Source: an uncultured SAR86 cluster bacterium
GTDB lineage: Bacteria > Pseudomonadota > Gammaproteobacteria > Magnimaribacterales > AG-339-G14
Direction: 5' to 3'
Length of the DNA stretch: 34,634 nucleotides
Assembly: GCA_902624765.1 (NCBI GenBank)
Contig: CACNYO010000011.1
Location: forward strand, 1-34,634
Positions 335 through 30,964 of this stretch are shown piece after piece; positions within the stretch are counted from its first letter, which is position 1; the number at the start of each line of letters is the position of its first letter. The position numbers and the translations under genes were made by a program. Below the pieces are notes generated by a model. That model searched no databases, was not told the DNA's origin, and worked only from the letters and a program-made list of their open reading frames with translations.

Positions 335-349
335 TGTACCTACCTAAAA

Positions 350-368
350 GAGAATGATTATCATTTAC
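350..368. promoter_or_regulatory. Fur box between divergent heme-uptake genes
   Basis: The core AATGAT-T-ATCATT (353-365) is a perfect 6-1-6 inverted repeat. Across 19 bases it matches the classical Fur consensus at 15 positions by my count. It lies between the receptor start (315) and hmuT start (399) and overlaps the -35 areas of both predicted divergent promoters. One Fur dimer pair could therefore repress both transcripts when iron is sufficient. Binding is inferred; the palindrome is seen directly. Confidence 0.85.
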
Positions 369-391
369 TTTTAAAAATAAAGCAATAGAAT
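364..391 (+). promoter_or_regulatory. Predicted promoter for hmuTUV-hugZ, possibly leaderless
   Basis: The -35 candidate is TTTACT (364-369) and the -10 candidate is TAGAAT (386-391), with a 16 nt spacer. The -35 overlaps the Fur box. The hmuT ATG begins 7 nt after the -10 and no Shine-Dalgarno sequence precedes it, so the transcript may have almost no leader. Confidence 0.4.
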
Positions 392-398
392 CTTATTA

Positions 399-1247
399 AT
401 GCGGATTATTCTTCTATCAATATTTTTATCTTGCTTCTACCTTTCTGGAAGCTGTGATCTAGCAGGTGATTCAAGCAAATTAGTGATAGCAGGAGGATCC
501 TTAACTGAAATTGTTTACGATCTTAATGAGGAAGAAAAACTCATCGCAGTTGACATCACATCCAACTACCCTTCCGAAGCAAAAAATTTACCTTCTATAG
601 GCTATGTTAGAGCCCTTTCTACCGAAGGATTATTATCGTTGAGTCCATCTTTAATTTTGGGTGAAGATGATATGGGACCTCCTTTGGTTTTAGATCAACT
701 CGATCTGGTAGGCGTTGATATAAGGATTATTCCTGAAGATCACAGCGTTGGTGGCATTATTAATAAGGTTAATTGCGTTTCAAAAATTCTTGGAACAGAT
801 AGAGATAAAAAAAGGAACCTCAAAAGAAAATTGGATAAAAACATTAATCTTTTAAAAAAATCTCAAGACAAGATTATTAGCAAAGAAGCTTCGGTAATGT
901 TAATTCTTAACTTACAAGGAACCTCGCCAATTGTTGCTGGAGTTTCTACCTCTGGAGATGGTTTTATAAAATTACTCGGCGCTAGAAATGCAATGGGTGA
1001 CTTTGAAGGATGGAAGCCGGTTAGCACTGAATCTATTTTAGAGAAAAATCCTGACTTCATAATAGTGACTAAAAGAGGAATGAGTTCCTTTGCTGATGAA
1101 GAAGCTTTCGGTCAACATCCATCCTTGAGACTCACCAATGCTGCAAGAGAGAGAAAAATCTTGGCTATCGATGGCATGTCAATGCTTGGTTTTGGTCCAA
1201 GGACTATTGAAACAGCGGTAACAGTTTCGGAAAAATTACTCAATTAA
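399..1247 (+). CDS. hmuT: Periplasmic heme-binding protein of the HmuTUV ABC importer
   Basis: This 282-residue protein has an N-terminal hydrophobic signal segment with a Cys at position 19. The -3 residue is Ser, so a lipoprotein cleavage is possible but weak. The mature part follows the type-III substrate-binding fold: an early AGGSLTEIVY segment (31-40), LPSIGYVR around 64-71, LSPSLILG (81-88), a central helical linker rich in Lys, and a C-terminal TNAARERKILAIDG. In this family it carries heme from the outer-membrane receptor to the permease. It starts the hmuTUV-hugZ operon; hmuU begins 1 nt after its stop. Heme specificity comes from similarity to HmuT/ChuT/PhuT and from the hugZ neighbour. 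Confidence 0.85.
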   Translation: MRIILLSIFLSCFYLSGSCDLAGDSSKLVIAGGSLTEIVYDLNEEEKLIAVDITSNYPSEAKNLPSIGYVRALSTEGLLSLSPSLILGEDDMGPPLVLDQLDLVGVDIRIIPEDHSVGGIINKVNCVSKILGTDRDKKRNLKRKLDKNINLLKKSQDKIISKEASVMLILNLQGTSPIVAGVSTSGDGFIKLLGARNAMGDFEGWKPVSTESILEKNPDFIIVTKRGMSSFADEEAFGQHPSLRLTNAARERKILAIDGMSMLGFGPRTIETAVTVSEKLLN

Positions 1248-1248
1248 C

Positions 1249-2286
1249 ATGACCTGGTTTCTTAATTATTTTAGTTTTCTAAAACACTCAACTAGTCAAC
1301 AAATCTTGATTTCTGTTTTGTTGATATTTTCTTTGGCCATTATTTTTCTTCTTTCGGTATCGTTTGGAAGTTTTAATTTTTCAATCTTAGAATTTCTATA
1401 TCCCTCAGAAAGCTCAATCCAAAAAACAGTTCTCTTTGAAATAAGAATTCCAAGAGTTCTTTTAGCTGGATTCGTTGGAGCAAGCTTGGGATTATCGGGC
1501 GCTTCTTTACAGGGCTTATTCAGAAATCCATTAGCAGATCCTGGATTGATTGGTGTTTCTGCGGGGGCTGCTCTAGGAGCTGCCTTGGTAATTGTTTTAG
1601 GATCAACTTATATTCCAGCCTATATTTTTAATACCTTGGCTTTACCAATTTCGGCTGTCGCTGGAGCTGCTTTAGTAATATCTCTCTTGTACTTTTTTAC
1701 TAGAGGGTTTGGTTATCAGGGAATAACTTATATGTTGTTAATTGGAATTGCTGTCAATGCATTTGCATCAGTTGGAATAGGAATTTTGACTTTCATAAGC
1801 ACAGATTCTGAATTAAGAGGCCTGACATTTTGGACAATGGGCAGCTTTGGCGGAGCCTCATGGCAAATCATTCTTCCTGCGTTGATGATTATAATTTTAT
1901 CAATGCTATGGATGATTCCGTCTTCAAGAAAGCTTGACCTACTGCAACTTGGTGAGCCTGAAGCTTACAGGTTAGGTATAGACGTTCAAAAGCTTAAATT
2001 TAAAGTCATTGTCTCTTCAGCAATAACAGTTGGCATAAGTGTCTCTTTATCTGGAATGATTGGTTTCGTTGGTTTAGTGGTTCCTCATCTCGTTAGATTA
2101 TTAGGCGGGGTTAATCATAGTTACCTCCTGCCTGCTTCTGCTTTCCTTGGTGCAAGTCTTATGATGGGAGCAGATTTATTATCCAGATTATTGATTGCCC
2201 CAGCTGAATTGCCAGTTGGCCTAATTACTAGCGCTATTGGAGCTCCGTTTTTCTTATGGTTAATTTTTAGATCAAGAAGAATATGA
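1249..2286 (+). CDS. hmuU: Heme ABC transporter permease (FecCD family)
   Basis: This 345-residue inner-membrane protein has about nine or ten hydrophobic segments and the usual FecCD length. Family signatures are visible: RIPRVLLAGFVGASLGLSGA early, RNPLADPGLIG, then GEPEAYRLGIDV near residues 235-245. The last is the cytoplasmic coupling loop that contacts the ATPase. GMIGFVGLVVPHLVRLLGG near 273-291 is also diagnostic. It would form a dimer channel with HmuV and accept heme from HmuT. Its last four bases overlap the start of hmuV in an ATGA, which indicates translational coupling. A siderophore or cobalamin substrate is the alternative, but the hugZ linkage favours heme. Confidence 0.88.
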   Translation: MTWFLNYFSFLKHSTSQQILISVLLIFSLAIIFLLSVSFGSFNFSILEFLYPSESSIQKTVLFEIRIPRVLLAGFVGASLGLSGASLQGLFRNPLADPGLIGVSAGAALGAALVIVLGSTYIPAYIFNTLALPISAVAGAALVISLLYFFTRGFGYQGITYMLLIGIAVNAFASVGIGILTFISTDSELRGLTFWTMGSFGGASWQIILPALMIIILSMLWMIPSSRKLDLLQLGEPEAYRLGIDVQKLKFKVIVSSAITVGISVSLSGMIGFVGLVVPHLVRLLGGVNHSYLLPASAFLGASLMMGADLLSRLLIAPAELPVGLITSAIGAPFFLWLIFRSRRI

Positions 2287-3053
2287 GCATTAAGACTTCT
2301 TCAATCTCCTATGAAATTAACAATAAAAATATCCTTAAGGATATTTCTCTTGAAGTGGAATTAGGAGAGATACTTTGTGTTTTAGGACCTAACGGAGCAG
2401 GAAAATCAACATTGCTTAATTTATTATCGGGAGATTTTAAGCCCTCAAGTGGAGAAATTTATTTTGATGGTAAAAACTTAAACGATATTTCAATTCAAGA
2501 AAGATCTTTCATGAGAAGCGTCATGGCTCAATCCCAAGCCATAGTCTTTGATTTTTCTGTAAAAGAGATCATTGAGATGGGCTGGCTAGATAAAGGTCTT
2601 TCTGGATATGCTGATAAGTTTCAGGAAGCTTTAGATGAGATTGCCGAAGAAGCGTCAGTAAAAGATCTACTCAACGAAAAATTTAATGTACTCTCCGGTG
2701 GTGAACAACGTAGAGTACATTTTGCTAGAACATTATTACAAACTTGGAGGCCATCAAATTCTTCTGATCCCATTTACTTATTATTAGATGAACCCACTGC
2801 CAATCTTGATATTCTGCATGAGAAAAAAATGATGCAAAAAATAAAAGAGAAAGCAGCAGATGGCATTGGAGTAATGATTATCCTTCATGACATTAATGTA
2901 GCTGCTAAATATTCTGATAAAGTTGCAATTTTCAAAGACGGTCAATTGAAGGATATCGGTCCGCCGTCTGCAGTGTTCGATGAAGAAAAGCTGAGTGCTA
3001 CTTACGGCCTACCCATGAAAATAAATGAAAATCCATATCGAATTACTTACTGA
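2283..3053 (+). CDS. hmuV: Heme ABC transporter ATPase
   Basis: This is a complete 256-residue ABC ATPase. Walker A is GPNGAGKST (35-43), the Q-loop Gln lies near 83-85, the signature is LSGGEQRR (137-144), Walker B is YLLLDE (165-170) and the switch His is H202 in LHDIN. It powers heme import through HmuU from the cytoplasmic side. The length and the DGQLKDIGPP segment fit the HmuV/FecE group. It overlaps hmuU by four bases, and its TGA stop shares one base with the hugZ ATG (TGATG), so these genes are almost certainly co-translated. Confidence 0.92.
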   Translation: MSIKTSSISYEINNKNILKDISLEVELGEILCVLGPNGAGKSTLLNLLSGDFKPSSGEIYFDGKNLNDISIQERSFMRSVMAQSQAIVFDFSVKEIIEMGWLDKGLSGYADKFQEALDEIAEEASVKDLLNEKFNVLSGGEQRRVHFARTLLQTWRPSNSSDPIYLLLDEPTANLDILHEKKMMQKIKEKAADGIGVMIILHDINVAAKYSDKVAIFKDGQLKDIGPPSAVFDEEKLSATYGLPMKINENPYRITY

Positions 3054-3769
3054 TGATTGAATACGAAAAAAAGGCTGTTGAGTTACTGAGAAATTGTAGA
3101 GAGGGAGTCTTATCGACAGTTTCTAAAAAATTTGAAGGCTATCCTTTTGGCAGTTTTGTCACGTTCATATCAGGTCCAGATAGAAGCATTATTTTTTACG
3201 CAAGTGATATAGCGCAACATACCATTAACATAAAAAACAATTCTAAAGCTTGTATAACATTGTTCAATTTGAACGAAGGAGATAAGCAGGACAGTTCAAG
3301 ACTAAGCTTACTTGGAGATATTCAAAAGATTGAAGATGATTCTGATGAAATTTCTGAGAAATTTATAGATTTCTTTCCGGAGAGTGCGCAATACTCAAAA
3401 ATGCACGATTTCAATTTTTATAAATTAAAAGTTAATGAAGCAAGATGGATTGGTGGTTTTGGAAAAATCGCTTGGCTAAATAATAATAATTGGAAGGCTT
3501 TAGAACCAAAGTGGCTCAAGCAGGAAGCATCAATGATTAAACATATGAATGATGATCATGCTAACTCCATAATCTCGACACTTCATGCAAAAAAGGGTTT
3601 GAAAGATAAGGATGCTAAGATGATAAGACTAACTATTGATGGCTATTATGTTTTATCAAAAGGAGTTATCTATTTTATAGAATTTGAAGAACCCTGCTTA
3701 AACGTCAAACAATATAGAGATAAATTAGTTACTCAAGCAAAAGAATTTAGGGATTATGAGCTGATATGA
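3053..3769 (+). CDS. hugZ: HugZ-type heme oxygenase/utilisation protein
   Basis: This 238-residue cytosolic protein has two parts. Residues 1-150 are a split-barrel (pyridoxamine-phosphate-oxidase-like) domain containing LSTVS, PFGSFVTF and a later ARWIGGFGKIAWL segment. Residues 155-238 are a DUF2470-type domain with HMNDDH (164-169), the signature found in HugZ proteins. HugZ enzymes bind heme and open the ring to release iron; they are unrelated to HO-1. The gene is the last of the operon and overlaps hmuV by 1 nt, so imported heme would be handed straight to iron release. Not every split-barrel/DUF2470 protein has proven oxygenase activity. Confidence 0.85.
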   Translation: MIEYEKKAVELLRNCREGVLSTVSKKFEGYPFGSFVTFISGPDRSIIFYASDIAQHTINIKNNSKACITLFNLNEGDKQDSSRLSLLGDIQKIEDDSDEISEKFIDFFPESAQYSKMHDFNFYKLKVNEARWIGGFGKIAWLNNNNWKALEPKWLKQEASMIKHMNDDHANSIISTLHAKKGLKDKDAKMIRLTIDGYYVLSKGVIYFIEFEEPCLNVKQYRDKLVTQAKEFRDYELI

Positions 3770-24787: not shown

Positions 24788-24800
24788 GCCTTATAATTAA

Positions 24801-24815
24801 TGAGAATAATTCTTC
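24801..24815. promoter_or_regulatory. Weak Fur-like palindrome upstream of pckA and the DLH-like gene
   Basis: AGAAT-A-ATTCT (24803-24813) is a perfect 5-1-5 inverted repeat inside TGAGAATAATTCTTC. It resembles the 7-1-7 Fur model in its left half only. In AT-rich DNA such a palindrome is not rare, so regulatory use is uncertain. Confidence 0.2.
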
Positions 24816-24842
24816 TTTGTTGATTAAATTTGTCTTATAAAG

Positions 24843-27998: not shown

Positions 27999-28988
27999 AT
28001 GAAAGCATTTGTTTGTAGTGAATTTGGACCTCTTGATATACATAAGGTAGAAGAAGTAGCAGAGCCAGAATTATTGGATGGCCAAGTAATCATTGATGTT
28101 AAAGCTGCTGGAGTTAGCTTTCCTGAAGTACTGATAGTTCAGGGCCTTTATCAGTTCAAACCTCCTTTTCCTTTTACCCCAGGGGGAGAAGTAGCTGGAG
28201 TAATTAGCAAAATAGGAGTTGGCGTTGAAGGTTTCAAAGAAGGAGATCGAGTTATTGCAATGACTGGAACTGGAGGAATGAGTGAAAAAGTAGCTGTTTT
28301 TGCAGCCTCATTATTTAAACTACCGGATTCTATGGGTTTTGCTGAAGGAGCTGCATTTCCTTTGAATTATGGAACTACAATTCATGGGCTTAAACAAAGA
28401 GCAAAACTCCAAGAGGGTGAGACTTTAATGGTCTCTGGAGCAGCAGGTGGTCTTGGAATTACTGCTATTCATCTAGGCAAAGCAATGGGAGCTAAAGTAA
28501 TTGCTACCGCATCGTCTGAAGAAAAATTAGAAATTTGCAAACAAGAGGGTGCTGATGAGGTTGTCTTATATCCCAGAGATATGGATAAAGATAAACAGAA
28601 GGAATTTTCTAATAATCTAAAAGCTGTTGCCCCAAATGGAATCGACGTTATTTACGATATTGTTGGTGGCGATTACGCTGAACCTTCTCTAAGAGCTATT
28701 GCAAGAAACGGAAGGTATCTAGTTATAGGATTTACCGCTGGCATACCAAAAATGCCATTGAACTTGACCTTGTTAAAGGAGTGCCAAATTGTAGGGGTGT
28801 TTTGGGGACAATTTGTAGGTTTAGAGCCTGAGGTAAATAAACAAAATTTTGATGACTGTTTCAAAATGGCTAATGAAGGTAAATTTAAACCCCTTGTCTC
28901 TCATACTTATAAGATTGAAGATTCAGTAGAAGCTCTGAAATTCATTCAAGACAGAAAAGCAACTGGAAAAGTTATTGTTGAGATGTAA
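27999..28988 (+). CDS. NADPH:quinone oxidoreductase-like MDR protein (zinc-less)
   Basis: I place the start at the ATG at 27999, 5 nt after GGAGAG, giving 329 residues; an upstream TTG at 27987 would add four residues but lacks a ribosome-binding site. The protein has GroES-like residues 1-120 (PGGEVAGVISKIG) and a Rossmann domain with MVSGAAGGLGITA near 146-158. No catalytic zinc ligands are apparent. This fits quinone/enoyl reductases of the MDR superfamily (QOR, acrylyl-CoA reductase-like). A strong bidirectional terminator begins right at its stop codon. The substrate is unknown. Confidence 0.9.
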   Translation: MKAFVCSEFGPLDIHKVEEVAEPELLDGQVIIDVKAAGVSFPEVLIVQGLYQFKPPFPFTPGGEVAGVISKIGVGVEGFKEGDRVIAMTGTGGMSEKVAVFAASLFKLPDSMGFAEGAAFPLNYGTTIHGLKQRAKLQEGETLMVSGAAGGLGITAIHLGKAMGAKVIATASSEEKLEICKQEGADEVVLYPRDMDKDKQKEFSNNLKAVAPNGIDVIYDIVGGDYAEPSLRAIARNGRYLVIGFTAGIPKMPLNLTLLKECQIVGVFWGQFVGLEPEVNKQNFDDCFKMANEGKFKPLVSHTYKIEDSVEALKFIQDRKATGKVIVEM

Positions 28989-29014
28989 AAAAAAGGGGCC
29001 AAAGCCCCTTTTTT
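28987..29014. terminator. Bidirectional rho-independent terminator
   Basis: GGGGC (28995-28999) pairs with GCCCC (29004-29008) around a CAAA loop. It is flanked by six A before and six T after, giving a U-run on either strand. It ends transcription of the quinone oxidoreductase gene on the plus strand and of the 3-TM gene at 29023 on the minus strand. Confidence 0.93.
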
Positions 29015-29022
29015 AGCTTAAG

Positions 29023-29433
29023 TCAGTCGGAACTATTATTCATCCATAACGGAAGAATAATATAGAGTCCTAGAATTACCCAAAATAAGGTTATGAAAGG
29101 ATCTCCTATCAAACTATAAGTAGGCTCTCCTTCTGAAGCAAAAAAAGCCACAAAAGAATCAAATCTTCCAGAAGGCTCTTCAACTTGACTCAAAGCATAT
29201 GCAGCTCCTTCGGTTGTCCAAGTTGTAAATGCTTGTTGAATTAAACCAAAATAAACAATCAAAAGCCCAAAAACTGTGGTTACCAGTTTTGTGAACATAT
29301 TTGCATTTCCGGAATTTACAAGATTAAGTGTCACTCTAGCTGCAAACCAAGCAGCAAAAAATACAAATAGTGTGAAGATTGCTCTACTTACCATAGCAAG
29401 TTGATATGTTGACCATATTTCGTATTCATTCAT
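29023..29433 (-). CDS. 3-TM membrane protein, paralog A of a tandem triplet
   Basis: This 136-residue protein has three hydrophobic segments (about 14-36, 49-66 and 112-130) and no recognised domain. It aligns almost without gaps with the next two genes: R33 and N37 at the end of segment 1 (ARVTLN), K49 and FGLLIVYFGL (55-64) in segment 2, ALSQ (80-83), FDSFV (91-95), SLIGDP (107-112) before segment 3, and W130 near the end. A strong AGGAGAG ribosome-binding site precedes the ATG after a TTTAATTAATTA leader. I do not recognise the family. Position in a row of paralogs suggests subunits of one inner-membrane complex, but this is inference. Confidence 0.8.
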   Translation of the reverse strand: MNEYEIWSTYQLAMVSRAIFTLFVFFAAWFAARVTLNLVNSGNANMFTKLVTTVFGLLIVYFGLIQQAFTTWTTEGAAYALSQVEEPSGRFDSFVAFFASEGEPTYSLIGDPFITLFWVILGLYIILPLWMNNSSD

Positions 29434-29490
29434 TTTTCTCTCCTAATTAATTAAATACTTTCTTATCTTAATATACTTACAATCAAATAA

Positions 29491-29520
29491 AAAAAGAGGA
29501 GCGGCTGCTCCTCTTTTTTT
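29491..29520 (-). terminator. Rho-independent terminator after paralog B
   Basis: AGAGGAGC (29495-29502) pairs with GCTCCTCT (29507-29514) around a GGCT loop. Read on the minus strand, the hairpin is followed by a T-rich tract (TTTTTTTATTT). It lies 11 nt past the stop of the 3-TM gene at 29531 and upstream of paralog A. Confidence 0.92.
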
Positions 29521-29530
29521 ATCAAAGATT

Positions 29531-29935
29531 TTAGCTTCTTTTGATCCAAATACCGCCAAGAATAATTGCAAGTATGACAAGGTACCAGACCATAAACACT
29601 GGGTCAGCAGGTATCAAACTAAATGAAGAGTCCCCCACACCAATTGAGTCAACAAATTGTTGGCCATTGGCTGTCAGATTATCAAGCTCTGCTAAGGCGT
29701 TTACAGTGCCTTGCCAGTTCGCGTATAAAAAACCTACCGTTTGTAGATTGTAATAAACAACACCTAAGCCAAATAAGGTTGCTAAGACTTTATTAAGCAT
29801 TGGTGTGCCTGGATCATTTTGAACATTGACCACCATTCTAAAAGCAACCCATATAAGAAAAGCTCCTGCTGCAAGATATACAGAGTTGCTAATCAAAAAA
29901 ACATTGAATTGATTAATTATTTCCATTTCAGTCAT
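29531..29935 (-). CDS. 3-TM membrane protein, paralog B of a tandem triplet
   Basis: I choose the ATG at 29933-29935, spaced 5 nt after AAGGAGAG, giving 134 residues. A longer frame from 29977 would start inside the leader and has no ribosome-binding site. Three hydrophobic segments (about 13-37, 52-64 and 110-130) and the shared markers are at the same positions as in paralog A: FRMVVN (32-37, R33 and N37), NKV (48-50), LFGLGVVYYNL (54-64), ALAE (80-83), FSLIPADP (105-112) and W130. The leader TTTAATTAATAAGGAGAG nearly repeats that of paralog A, which supports a fairly recent duplication. Function unknown. Confidence 0.8.
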   Translation of the reverse strand: MTEMEIINQFNVFLISNSVYLAAGAFLIWVAFRMVVNVQNDPGTPMLNKVLATLFGLGVVYYNLQTVGFLYANWQGTVNALAELDNLTANGQQFVDSIGVGDSSFSLIPADPVFMVWYLVILAIILGGIWIKRS

Positions 29936-29983
29936 ATTTCTCTCCTTATTAATTAAACTGATGTGACATGGTATCACTTAGCA

Positions 29984-30013
29984 TAAAAAAAAGGAGGCTT
30001 TAGCCTCCTTTTT
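29984..30013 (-). terminator. Rho-independent terminator after paralog C
   Basis: AGGAGGC (29992-29998) pairs with GCCTCCT (30003-30009) around a TTTA loop. Eight A at 29984-29991 give a U-run on minus-strand transcripts. It separates paralog C from paralog B and leaves only about 50 nt for any paralog B promoter. Confidence 0.92.
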
Positions 30014-30026
30014 TTATTTTATAAGC

Positions 30027-30443
30027 TCAATCTTTAGGCGCAGGAGCTGTCCACATTCCGCCTAACAGCCCTATTAAAACTGCCACCATGAAAACCAATC
30101 CGAGAGGATCAGAAGGAATAATAGAAGGATCTACATACCCAGTTGCTCCCATCCTATCTACAAACATCTGTAGACCTCCCGGGAGATCTTGCCCTGATTC
30201 AGATAGAGCATAAGCCCAATTGTTTACTAAAGAAGTAACGTTGCCGTAGGTACCAAAAAAGAACCCAACTATGCAAAGAGACATTACAGAATGAATTACT
30301 TTGCCAAAAGTATTAGCTCCGTAGATATAAGCATTTGATACTCCTCTAAACATCATCCAAAGAAGCAAGACATTTCCTACGAAAAAGGCAGCATTAGCCG
30401 TCATAAGTCCTATGTTTGCATCCATAATTTGTGAAATTTCCAT
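30027..30443 (-). CDS. 3-TM membrane protein, paralog C of a tandem triplet
   Basis: This 138-residue protein is the most divergent of the three but keeps the same layout: N-terminal helix, TM1 with FRGVSN (32-37, R33 and N37), GKVI (47-50) leading into TM2 (about 50-68), ALSE (79-82), MFVDRM (93-98), SIIPSDP (107-113) before TM3 (about 112-131) and GGMW (128-131). Segment 2 has lost the FGL motif (VMSLCIVGFFFG). A TAGGAGA ribosome-binding site and its own upstream region precede it. It is the first of the triplet in transcription order. Function is unknown, and I know of no named family. Confidence 0.8.
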   Translation of the reverse strand: MEISQIMDANIGLMTANAAFFVGNVLLLWMMFRGVSNAYIYGANTFGKVIHSVMSLCIVGFFFGTYGNVTSLVNNWAYALSESGQDLPGGLQMFVDRMGATGYVDPSIIPSDPLGLVFMVAVLIGLLGGMWTAPAPKD

Positions 30444-30469
30444 ATTTTTCTCCTATTTATGAAACTTTT

Positions 30470-30482
30470 AATGAATATCATT
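30470..30482. promoter_or_regulatory. Fur-like palindrome upstream of the 3-TM triplet
   Basis: On the minus strand this reads AATGATATTCATT, matching the 13 nt Fur core (AATGATAATCATT) at 12 positions, but the flanks match poorly (about 13 of 19 overall). It lies 27 nt upstream of the paralog C ATG, just downstream of a TATATT -10 candidate (30488-30493). The lipoprotein gene lies on the other side. Iron control is only a hypothesis. Confidence 0.3.
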
Positions 30483-30595
30483 TAGTCTAATATAAAAACT
30501 TTGATAAAAAATTAATTTTTTAAAAAAATAAAATTTAGGTGAATTCTAATAGTTTAAATAAAATGGATATTTAGATTCAATAAATGAGAGAAATT

Positions 30596-30964
30596 ATGAA
30601 ACTATTTTTCCTTACTTTTATAGTGATTCTTTTATCGGCTTGTGGCGTAAAAAGTGTTACGTCTGCTTCAGTTCAAGCTGATATTGTATCTGTTGCGGAA
30701 TACAAAGATTATTCTTGCAAAGAACTTGCTTTGGATGCGCTTAATATTCAAAACAGAATACCTGAAATTTCTTCTGTGATTGACAAAAAGAAAAAAGATA
30801 ACGATGCATATATAGCAACTGCTGTTGTATTTATGCCCATCCTAGCTGCAGGAATTAAAGGCAATCAAGAGGAAGCGGCTAAGTTAGCGCTTTACAAGGG
30901 TCAACTAAATGCAATCAGACAGGCTGCGATTATGAAAGATTGCGAGATTGTAGTTCAAAACTAA
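30596..30964 (+). CDS. Small predicted lipoprotein of unknown function
   Basis: I choose the ATG at 30596, which follows GAGAG by 5 nt; an ATG at 30584 would add four residues. The 122-residue product has a clear lipoprotein signal ending in LLSAC with the lipid-modified Cys at about position 16. Then comes YKDYSCKEL with a second Cys, a helical region (ALDALNIQNRIPEISSVIDKK, split across turns), a hydrophobic VVFMPILAAGIK patch, and a C-terminal helix ending in KDCEIV. The two later Cys could form a disulfide. Similar short lipoproteins with a YxxxSCxxL motif occur widely in gammaproteobacteria without known function. Confidence 0.75.
   Translation: MKLFFLTFIVILLSACGVKSVTSASVQADIVSVAEYKDYSCKELALDALNIQNRIPEISSVIDKKKKDNDAYIATAVVFMPILAAGIKGNQEEAAKLALYKGQLNAIRQAAIMKDCEIVVQN

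Follow-up and report, generated by a model that had tools for sequence, protein, structure and literature searches.

The window, by which we mean the whole stretch of 34,634 nucleotides analysed here from a SAR86-cluster genome, carries on its minus strand a tandem array of three paralogous genes, A, B and C, for small membrane proteins of a family that is confined to the SAR86 order among the genomes sampled. In three sister genera (g2 to g4) the array lies behind a predicted Fur box. The protein family is undescribed; the Fur regulation behind which it sits is of a known kind. On the overall reading, that this is a new small inner-membrane family, probably abundant and with an ancestral link to iron starvation within this branch of SAR86, the evidence leaves us about evenly divided.

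Transcription runs from C through B to A, and an AGGAG or close variant stands ahead of the start of each gene (Table 1). An earlier sequence-only reading had described three small membrane proteins of 136, 134 and 138 amino acids (A, B and C, respectively), each with a ribosome-binding site, and both the coordinates and the reading frames are confirmed here. Gene B starts at the ATG at 29935; the longer form with a GTG start at 29977 is a mechanical ORF only. The same reading took the three for paralogues, which is borne out by a search of the window's own genome with B: it recovers both A (E 1.2e-11, 29% identity) and C (E 1.9e-9, 31%). Within the window's genus the orthologues of B are 53-99% identical, and the B protein of the SAR86 isolate AH-736-O06 is 99% identical to that of the window. 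Divergent from the array lies a small lipoprotein-like gene (30584-30964, with a signal peptide containing LSAC), found in several genomes of g1 only.

Table 1. Features of the array and of Fur-box candidates in the window, with the evidence for each.
Feature	Coordinates	Strand	Evidence
Gene C, 138 aa, 3 TM, class C; first gene of the array	30027..30443	-	ORF; AF2 pLDDT 94.3; family match
Gene B, 134 aa, 3 TM, class B	29531..29935	-	ORF; AF2 pLDDT 95.1, pTM 0.83; orthologues
Gene A, 136 aa, 3 TM, class A	29023..29433	-	ORF; B-family match; three hydropathy peaks
Ribosome-binding site of C (AGGAG)	30450..30455	-	sequence
Ribosome-binding site of B (AAGGAGAG)	29940..29947	-	sequence
Ribosome-binding site of A (TAGGAGAG)	29438..29445	-	sequence
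Intrinsic terminator after C (GGAGGC-UAAA-GCCUCC, U8)	29985..30016	-	hairpin scans, folding
Intrinsic terminator after B (GAGGAGC-AGCC-GCUCCUC, U7)	29489..29521	-	hairpin scan, folding
Bidirectional intrinsic terminator after A, common to the convergent dehydrogenase gene	28989..29014		hairpin scan, folding
Candidate decayed Fur-box remnant upstream of C (AAATGATATTCATTAAAAGTT)	30463..30483	-	PWM 5.1, 93.6th percentile
Strongest Fur-box match of the window (AAAAGAGAATGATTATCATTT), upstream of a haem-uptake-type operon	346..366		PWM 22.6

The proteins could not be placed in any known family, as the sequence-only reading had also found. A, B and C have no match in Pfam, NCBIfam, PHROGs or PADLOC above the curated cut-off or at E < 1e-3, and none among the PDB sequences; Pfam searches with 41 members gave one isolated weak match below 1e-3, to TrbL_2 (4.2e-4). 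There is no confident fold match either. The best Foldseek E-values were 1.1 against the PDB and 0.66 against viral structures, all to generic helical bundles, and a fold search gave a best Z of 9.0 (VIA), with SPX and designed bundles among the others, a score level that is common for helical models. No description of the family was found in the open-access literature.

Among SAR86-order genomes of at least 70% completeness the family is present in 128 of 176, and in 35 of the 40 good ones, with one to four copies per genome, and none outside the order matched among the 274 genomes sampled from the class and the 398 from the phylum. In family f1 two to four members stand in tandem at a single locus, which lies 3' of oxidase assembly genes and has a zinc-type dehydrogenase gene as its convergent neighbour. 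Families f2 to f4 mostly have one or two copies, at other loci and sometimes as a divergent pair, and genomes with a single copy occur outside f1. In the tree the members fall into several old paralogue classes, differently sampled genome by genome. In one genome, G003, the family domain forms the C-terminal part of an open frame of 466 residues close to the end of a contig (L023:5950-7350), which may be a fusion or an assembly artefact.

AlphaFold2 models of B and C have an identical order of helices: two helices of 37-39 residues, a short helix near residues 89-98, and a third transmembrane helix near 112-131. With the hydropathy of A, which agrees, they uphold the three transmembrane helices ascribed to each protein. 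The loop between TM1 and TM2 is basic, the N-terminus and segment 70-112 are acidic, and on these charges the N-terminus is predicted to lie outside. In the resulting topology model TM1 would run from out to in and end at W29..R33, a short cytoplasmic loop would lead to TM2, starting at K49..T/S53, and after it would come an acidic periplasmic segment with the short helix, TM3 ending at W130, and a C-terminus inside. Only some of the motifs listed in the sequence-only reading belong to the family at large. Among 82 members R33 is kept in 79, the lysine before TM2 (K49) in 81, with arginine in the other, and the tryptophan at 130 in all, to which W29 (79) and T/S53 (82) are to be added. N37 occurs in only 30 of them, and the positions of the P-x-D-P motif are conserved in 60 (P109), 40 (D111) and 62 (P112). 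The true family signature is W29, R33, K49, T/S53 and W130, not N37 or DP.

Conservation in these 82 proteins is strongest in this basic and aromatic cluster at the cytoplasmic interface. No histidine or cysteine is conserved among the members, which speaks against a direct iron site, nor is there an invariant acidic residue able to bind iron. Two members of 90 residues in f4 (L051:6510-6779 and L055:9887-10159) have lost most of the periplasmic part; they retain the three-helix core with R, K, S and W, which points to the cluster at the cytoplasmic interface as the working part shared across the family.

Each of the three genes is followed by a GC-rich hairpin with a U-run, as the sequence-only reading had noted; folding and a strict scan agree on this. 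The folding energies after A, B and C are -16.2, -24.4 and -20.4 kcal/mol (z -3.5, -7.9 and -5.2), and across the 34.6-kb window the strict scan finds hairpins with at least five G-C pairs at these three places only, the chance level being 0-1 in 20 Markov-simulated windows. A simple scanner detects one of the three, probably because A/T flanks are absorbed into the stem. Rfam gave 36 sub-threshold matches, mostly over terminator hairpins. In the f1 loci a terminator follows 44 of 65 array genes; the 313 other genes yield 17 cases, all at the convergent neighbour. This neighbour, the sole non-family gene with a terminator there, has it in 17 of 25 loci by using the array's bidirectional hairpin. 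The enrichment at array genes (Fisher p 1.5e-27) counts related genomes as independent. Many internal gene pairs in the sister genera are 9-24 nt apart without an intervening hairpin, and a terminator after every single gene is mostly a habit of the window's genus.

A 400-kb sample of the finished genome G009, with 422 ORFs, gave eight genes flagged for strong terminators. Proteorhodopsin, the ammonium transporter (Amt), Hsp20 and a TonB receptor are among them, as are the array and its convergent neighbour; the other two are an ORF on the TonB receptor's bidirectional hairpin and a weak match. A hairpin of the same type lies 3' of proteorhodopsin in the window's own genome. Strong expression in ocean bacteria is to be expected of several of these genes, and since the terminators are rare and shared with such genes we read the array as highly expressed, its proteins probably being made in large amounts. 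The array thus resembles the SAR86 proteorhodopsin and ammonium transporter genes in coding for membrane proteins and in having a rare, strong intrinsic terminator at the gene end; it differs in that the families are unrelated and that those are single genes rather than arrays. Codon usage is uninformative on expression, because the ribosomal genes of a relative show no usable bias. From each hairpin to the next start there are fifty or so bases, with room for a -10 element and any -35 falling within the T-run, a spacing that makes separate promoters for the array genes of the window plausible. The earlier suggestion of individually set, possibly high expression is in this way supported indirectly, by the rarity of the terminators and the company they keep.

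A palindrome, TGAGAATNATTCTCA, lies upstream of the first array gene in genera g2 to g4. At one mismatch or fewer it occurs 1-9 times per genome, against 0-1 for the reversed control, and its other sites lie upstream of TonB receptors, FTR1 iron permeases, an Fe(III)-type binding protein and ferritin-like genes, with some further sites inside or beside genes that have no iron link. A Fur-box weight matrix (PWM) was derived from 16 sites at iron genes, no array site being included, and 786 upstream regions were scored. In all 16 genomes of g2 to g4 a box stands 41-52 nt before the array's first gene (PWM 15.5-25.2, at or above the 98.9th percentile), and in these 16 genomes the scan finds none before the internal array genes. 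Further g2-g4 genomes, checked later, have the motif just before the array in nine cases of eleven; in G317 and G320 it was not found there at one mismatch. Three genomes of family f2, G031, G037 and G422, have the box as well.

A single confident Fur-family protein (PF01475) is encoded in each of 10 genomes tested, that of the window included, which makes Fur the likely reader of the predicted box. The sequence-only reading had not noticed this tie to iron. The Fur regulon of Gammaproteobacteria has a 7-1-7 Fur box before iron-starvation genes, and the sister-genus arrays would on sequence grounds belong to its SAR86 version, having near the promoter, at a fixed position, the same palindrome as the TonB-receptor, FTR1, Fe-binding-protein and ferritin-like genes. 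They depart from the known regulon in two ways: neither an iron role nor a relative is known for the array family, and the window's genus lacks the box. At those f3 and f4 loci that were scored the box is absent, and the window's array has no convincing one, so iron control is not family-wide.

Arrays in the window's genus, where nearly every array gene also has its own terminator, have no Fur box, the best PWM score being 6.4. Upstream of C, at -40 as compared with -41 to -52 for the intact boxes of the sister genera, there is a candidate remnant that we infer to be a decayed Fur box, at a score which 6% of ordinary upstream regions also reach. Fur control appears otherwise intact in the window: its strongest match, outside the array, serves as an internal positive control and precedes an operon (399-3769) for a binding protein, a FecCD permease, an ATPase and a HugZ-like protein, in a haem-uptake layout. 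For this reason the array has probably left the Fur regulon in this genus. The operon and its box (346-3769) are divergent from an apparent TonB-receptor gene that runs off the window start; FecCD is absent in 11 of 12 relatives searched, and the haem-type FecCD operon may be patchy in SAR86. Another Fur-box-like site (24798-24818, score 16.4) lies between a divergent dienelactone-hydrolase-type gene and the ATP-type PEP carboxykinase gene (pckA) and is kept in G002, G004, G005 and G007, which suggests that a gene of central carbon metabolism is under iron control.

We lean, with some reserve, towards a general role of the family in the physiology of iron starvation at the inner membrane. In the sister genera the array would be a Fur-repressed unit; when iron is scarce Fur would leave the promoter and two to four paralogues would be produced jointly. 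In the genus of the window the Fur box would have decayed and each gene would form a unit with its own ribosome-binding site and terminator, so that expression would be set per gene and no longer by iron. The proteins may assemble into a homo- or hetero-oligomeric module whose members work or dock through the conserved cytoplasmic R-K-W cluster that they share, while the acidic periplasmic part, which diverges between them, would be the variable side that faces partners. That such an inner-membrane module aids the use of scarce iron across that membrane is the specific activity we think likeliest, though a tentative proposal. Participation in iron uptake proper is likewise rather doubtful, and no iron gene adjoins the array in family f1. 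We also considered whether the family fills a gap left by missing FecCD siderophore permeases, an argument that is weak because the window itself carries FecCD in its haem-type operon. The boldest version, a new iron-starvation machine of the inner membrane in which three-helix oligomers carry or gate iron or an iron chelate, paralogues are swapped to suit the ligand, and one genus makes them constitutively, is improbable.

The alternative that survives best, unlikely though we hold it to be, is an abundant structural or membrane-adapting protein without specific iron chemistry, for which Fur control in the sister genera would be a secondary input. The lack of conserved metal ligands and the concentration of conservation in the cytoplasmic-interface cluster would both suit such a protein, as would terminators of a kind common to bulk membrane proteins, and the loss of Fur control in one genus and its absence from two families would mean that the function is independent of that control. 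Against this, the Fur box is fixed in place across three genera, and G010, G013, G014 and G016 have no perfect match to the motif anywhere in the genome other than the one at the array, which suggests a selected link.

Respiratory function was considered on account of the neighbourhood, since in those f1 loci that reach far enough the array is constantly found directly 3' of coxC/SURF1/ctaA/ctaB/SCO1 on the same strand, SCO1 and SURF1 being confirmed by Pfam. Small three-helix subunits are found in oxidases, and in size and number of transmembrane helices the array proteins resemble the CyoD/COX4-type subunits and the SdhC/D anchors. The neighbourhood carries little weight, however, because the entire block is syntenic, unrelated flanking genes included; the copies in f2 to f4 are located elsewhere, so that the linkage holds in f1 only, and the sister-genus array has a Fur box of its own. 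The family differs from these small respiratory subunits in having no sequence or profile match, to any oxidase subunit among others, and no conserved histidine, and we know of no CyoD/COX4-type or SdhC/D family with the invariant W-R-K-T/S-W core. That the proteins serve the aa3 cytochrome oxidase, as small accessory subunits or as partners in its assembly, seems a poor prospect.

The sequence-only reading had proposed that A, B and C are three subunits of one membrane complex, a proposal it set against random copy number and unconserved R33, N37 and DP positions. At least two different paralogue classes are nearly always represented in an f1 array, as a heterotrimer would lead one to expect. 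Copy number nevertheless ranges from one to four, with single-copy genomes in other families, the classes present vary among close relatives, and neither N37 nor DP is conserved, R33 being the part of that expectation that stood. Single members are moreover exchanged between genomes that are about 95-99% identical around them. G005 and G007, for instance, are 97-99% identical around the array and gene B alone falls to about 70%; between G002 and G004 it is gene C that has been replaced, with B 95-98% identical. We have accordingly rejected the fixed A-B-C heterotrimer, as a very improbable arrangement for proteins of variable copy number and shifting class. Mosaic replacement of single genes affects 10-22% of genes between close SAR86 genomes (L126-L145), pointing to frequent recombination, and the excess at the array (3 of 6 against 28 of 187 ordinary genes, p 0.054) is marginal. 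A recombination hotspot under diversifying selection was likewise set aside, the replacements being genuine yet only marginally above this background.

Small transmembrane proteins replaced singly between close genomes might also be selfish, defensive or lytic (a holin, toxin or bacteriocin immunity protein), but this is hardly credible given that ordinary genes are replaced as well, that the chromosomal locus is fixed in f1, that the array has Fur boxes, and that PADLOC, PHROGs, viral contigs and phage records gave no match. The only holin match was weak (E 0.23), and a viral origin was rejected, there being no relatives among the viral contigs or phage records.

SAR86 bacteria are among the most abundant of the surface ocean and have been cultured only recently (PMC11582366), and their TonB transporters have already been reported to respond to iron stress (PMC11069385). 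A membrane protein specific to the order, probably abundant and under an iron switch, would mark a definite gap in what is understood of how SAR86 copes with low iron, and beside the TonB transporters the array could be used, as transcript or as protein, to mark iron stress in SAR86. With the Fur box lost in one genus, iron-controlled and uncontrolled versions of the same array would lend themselves to a natural comparison.
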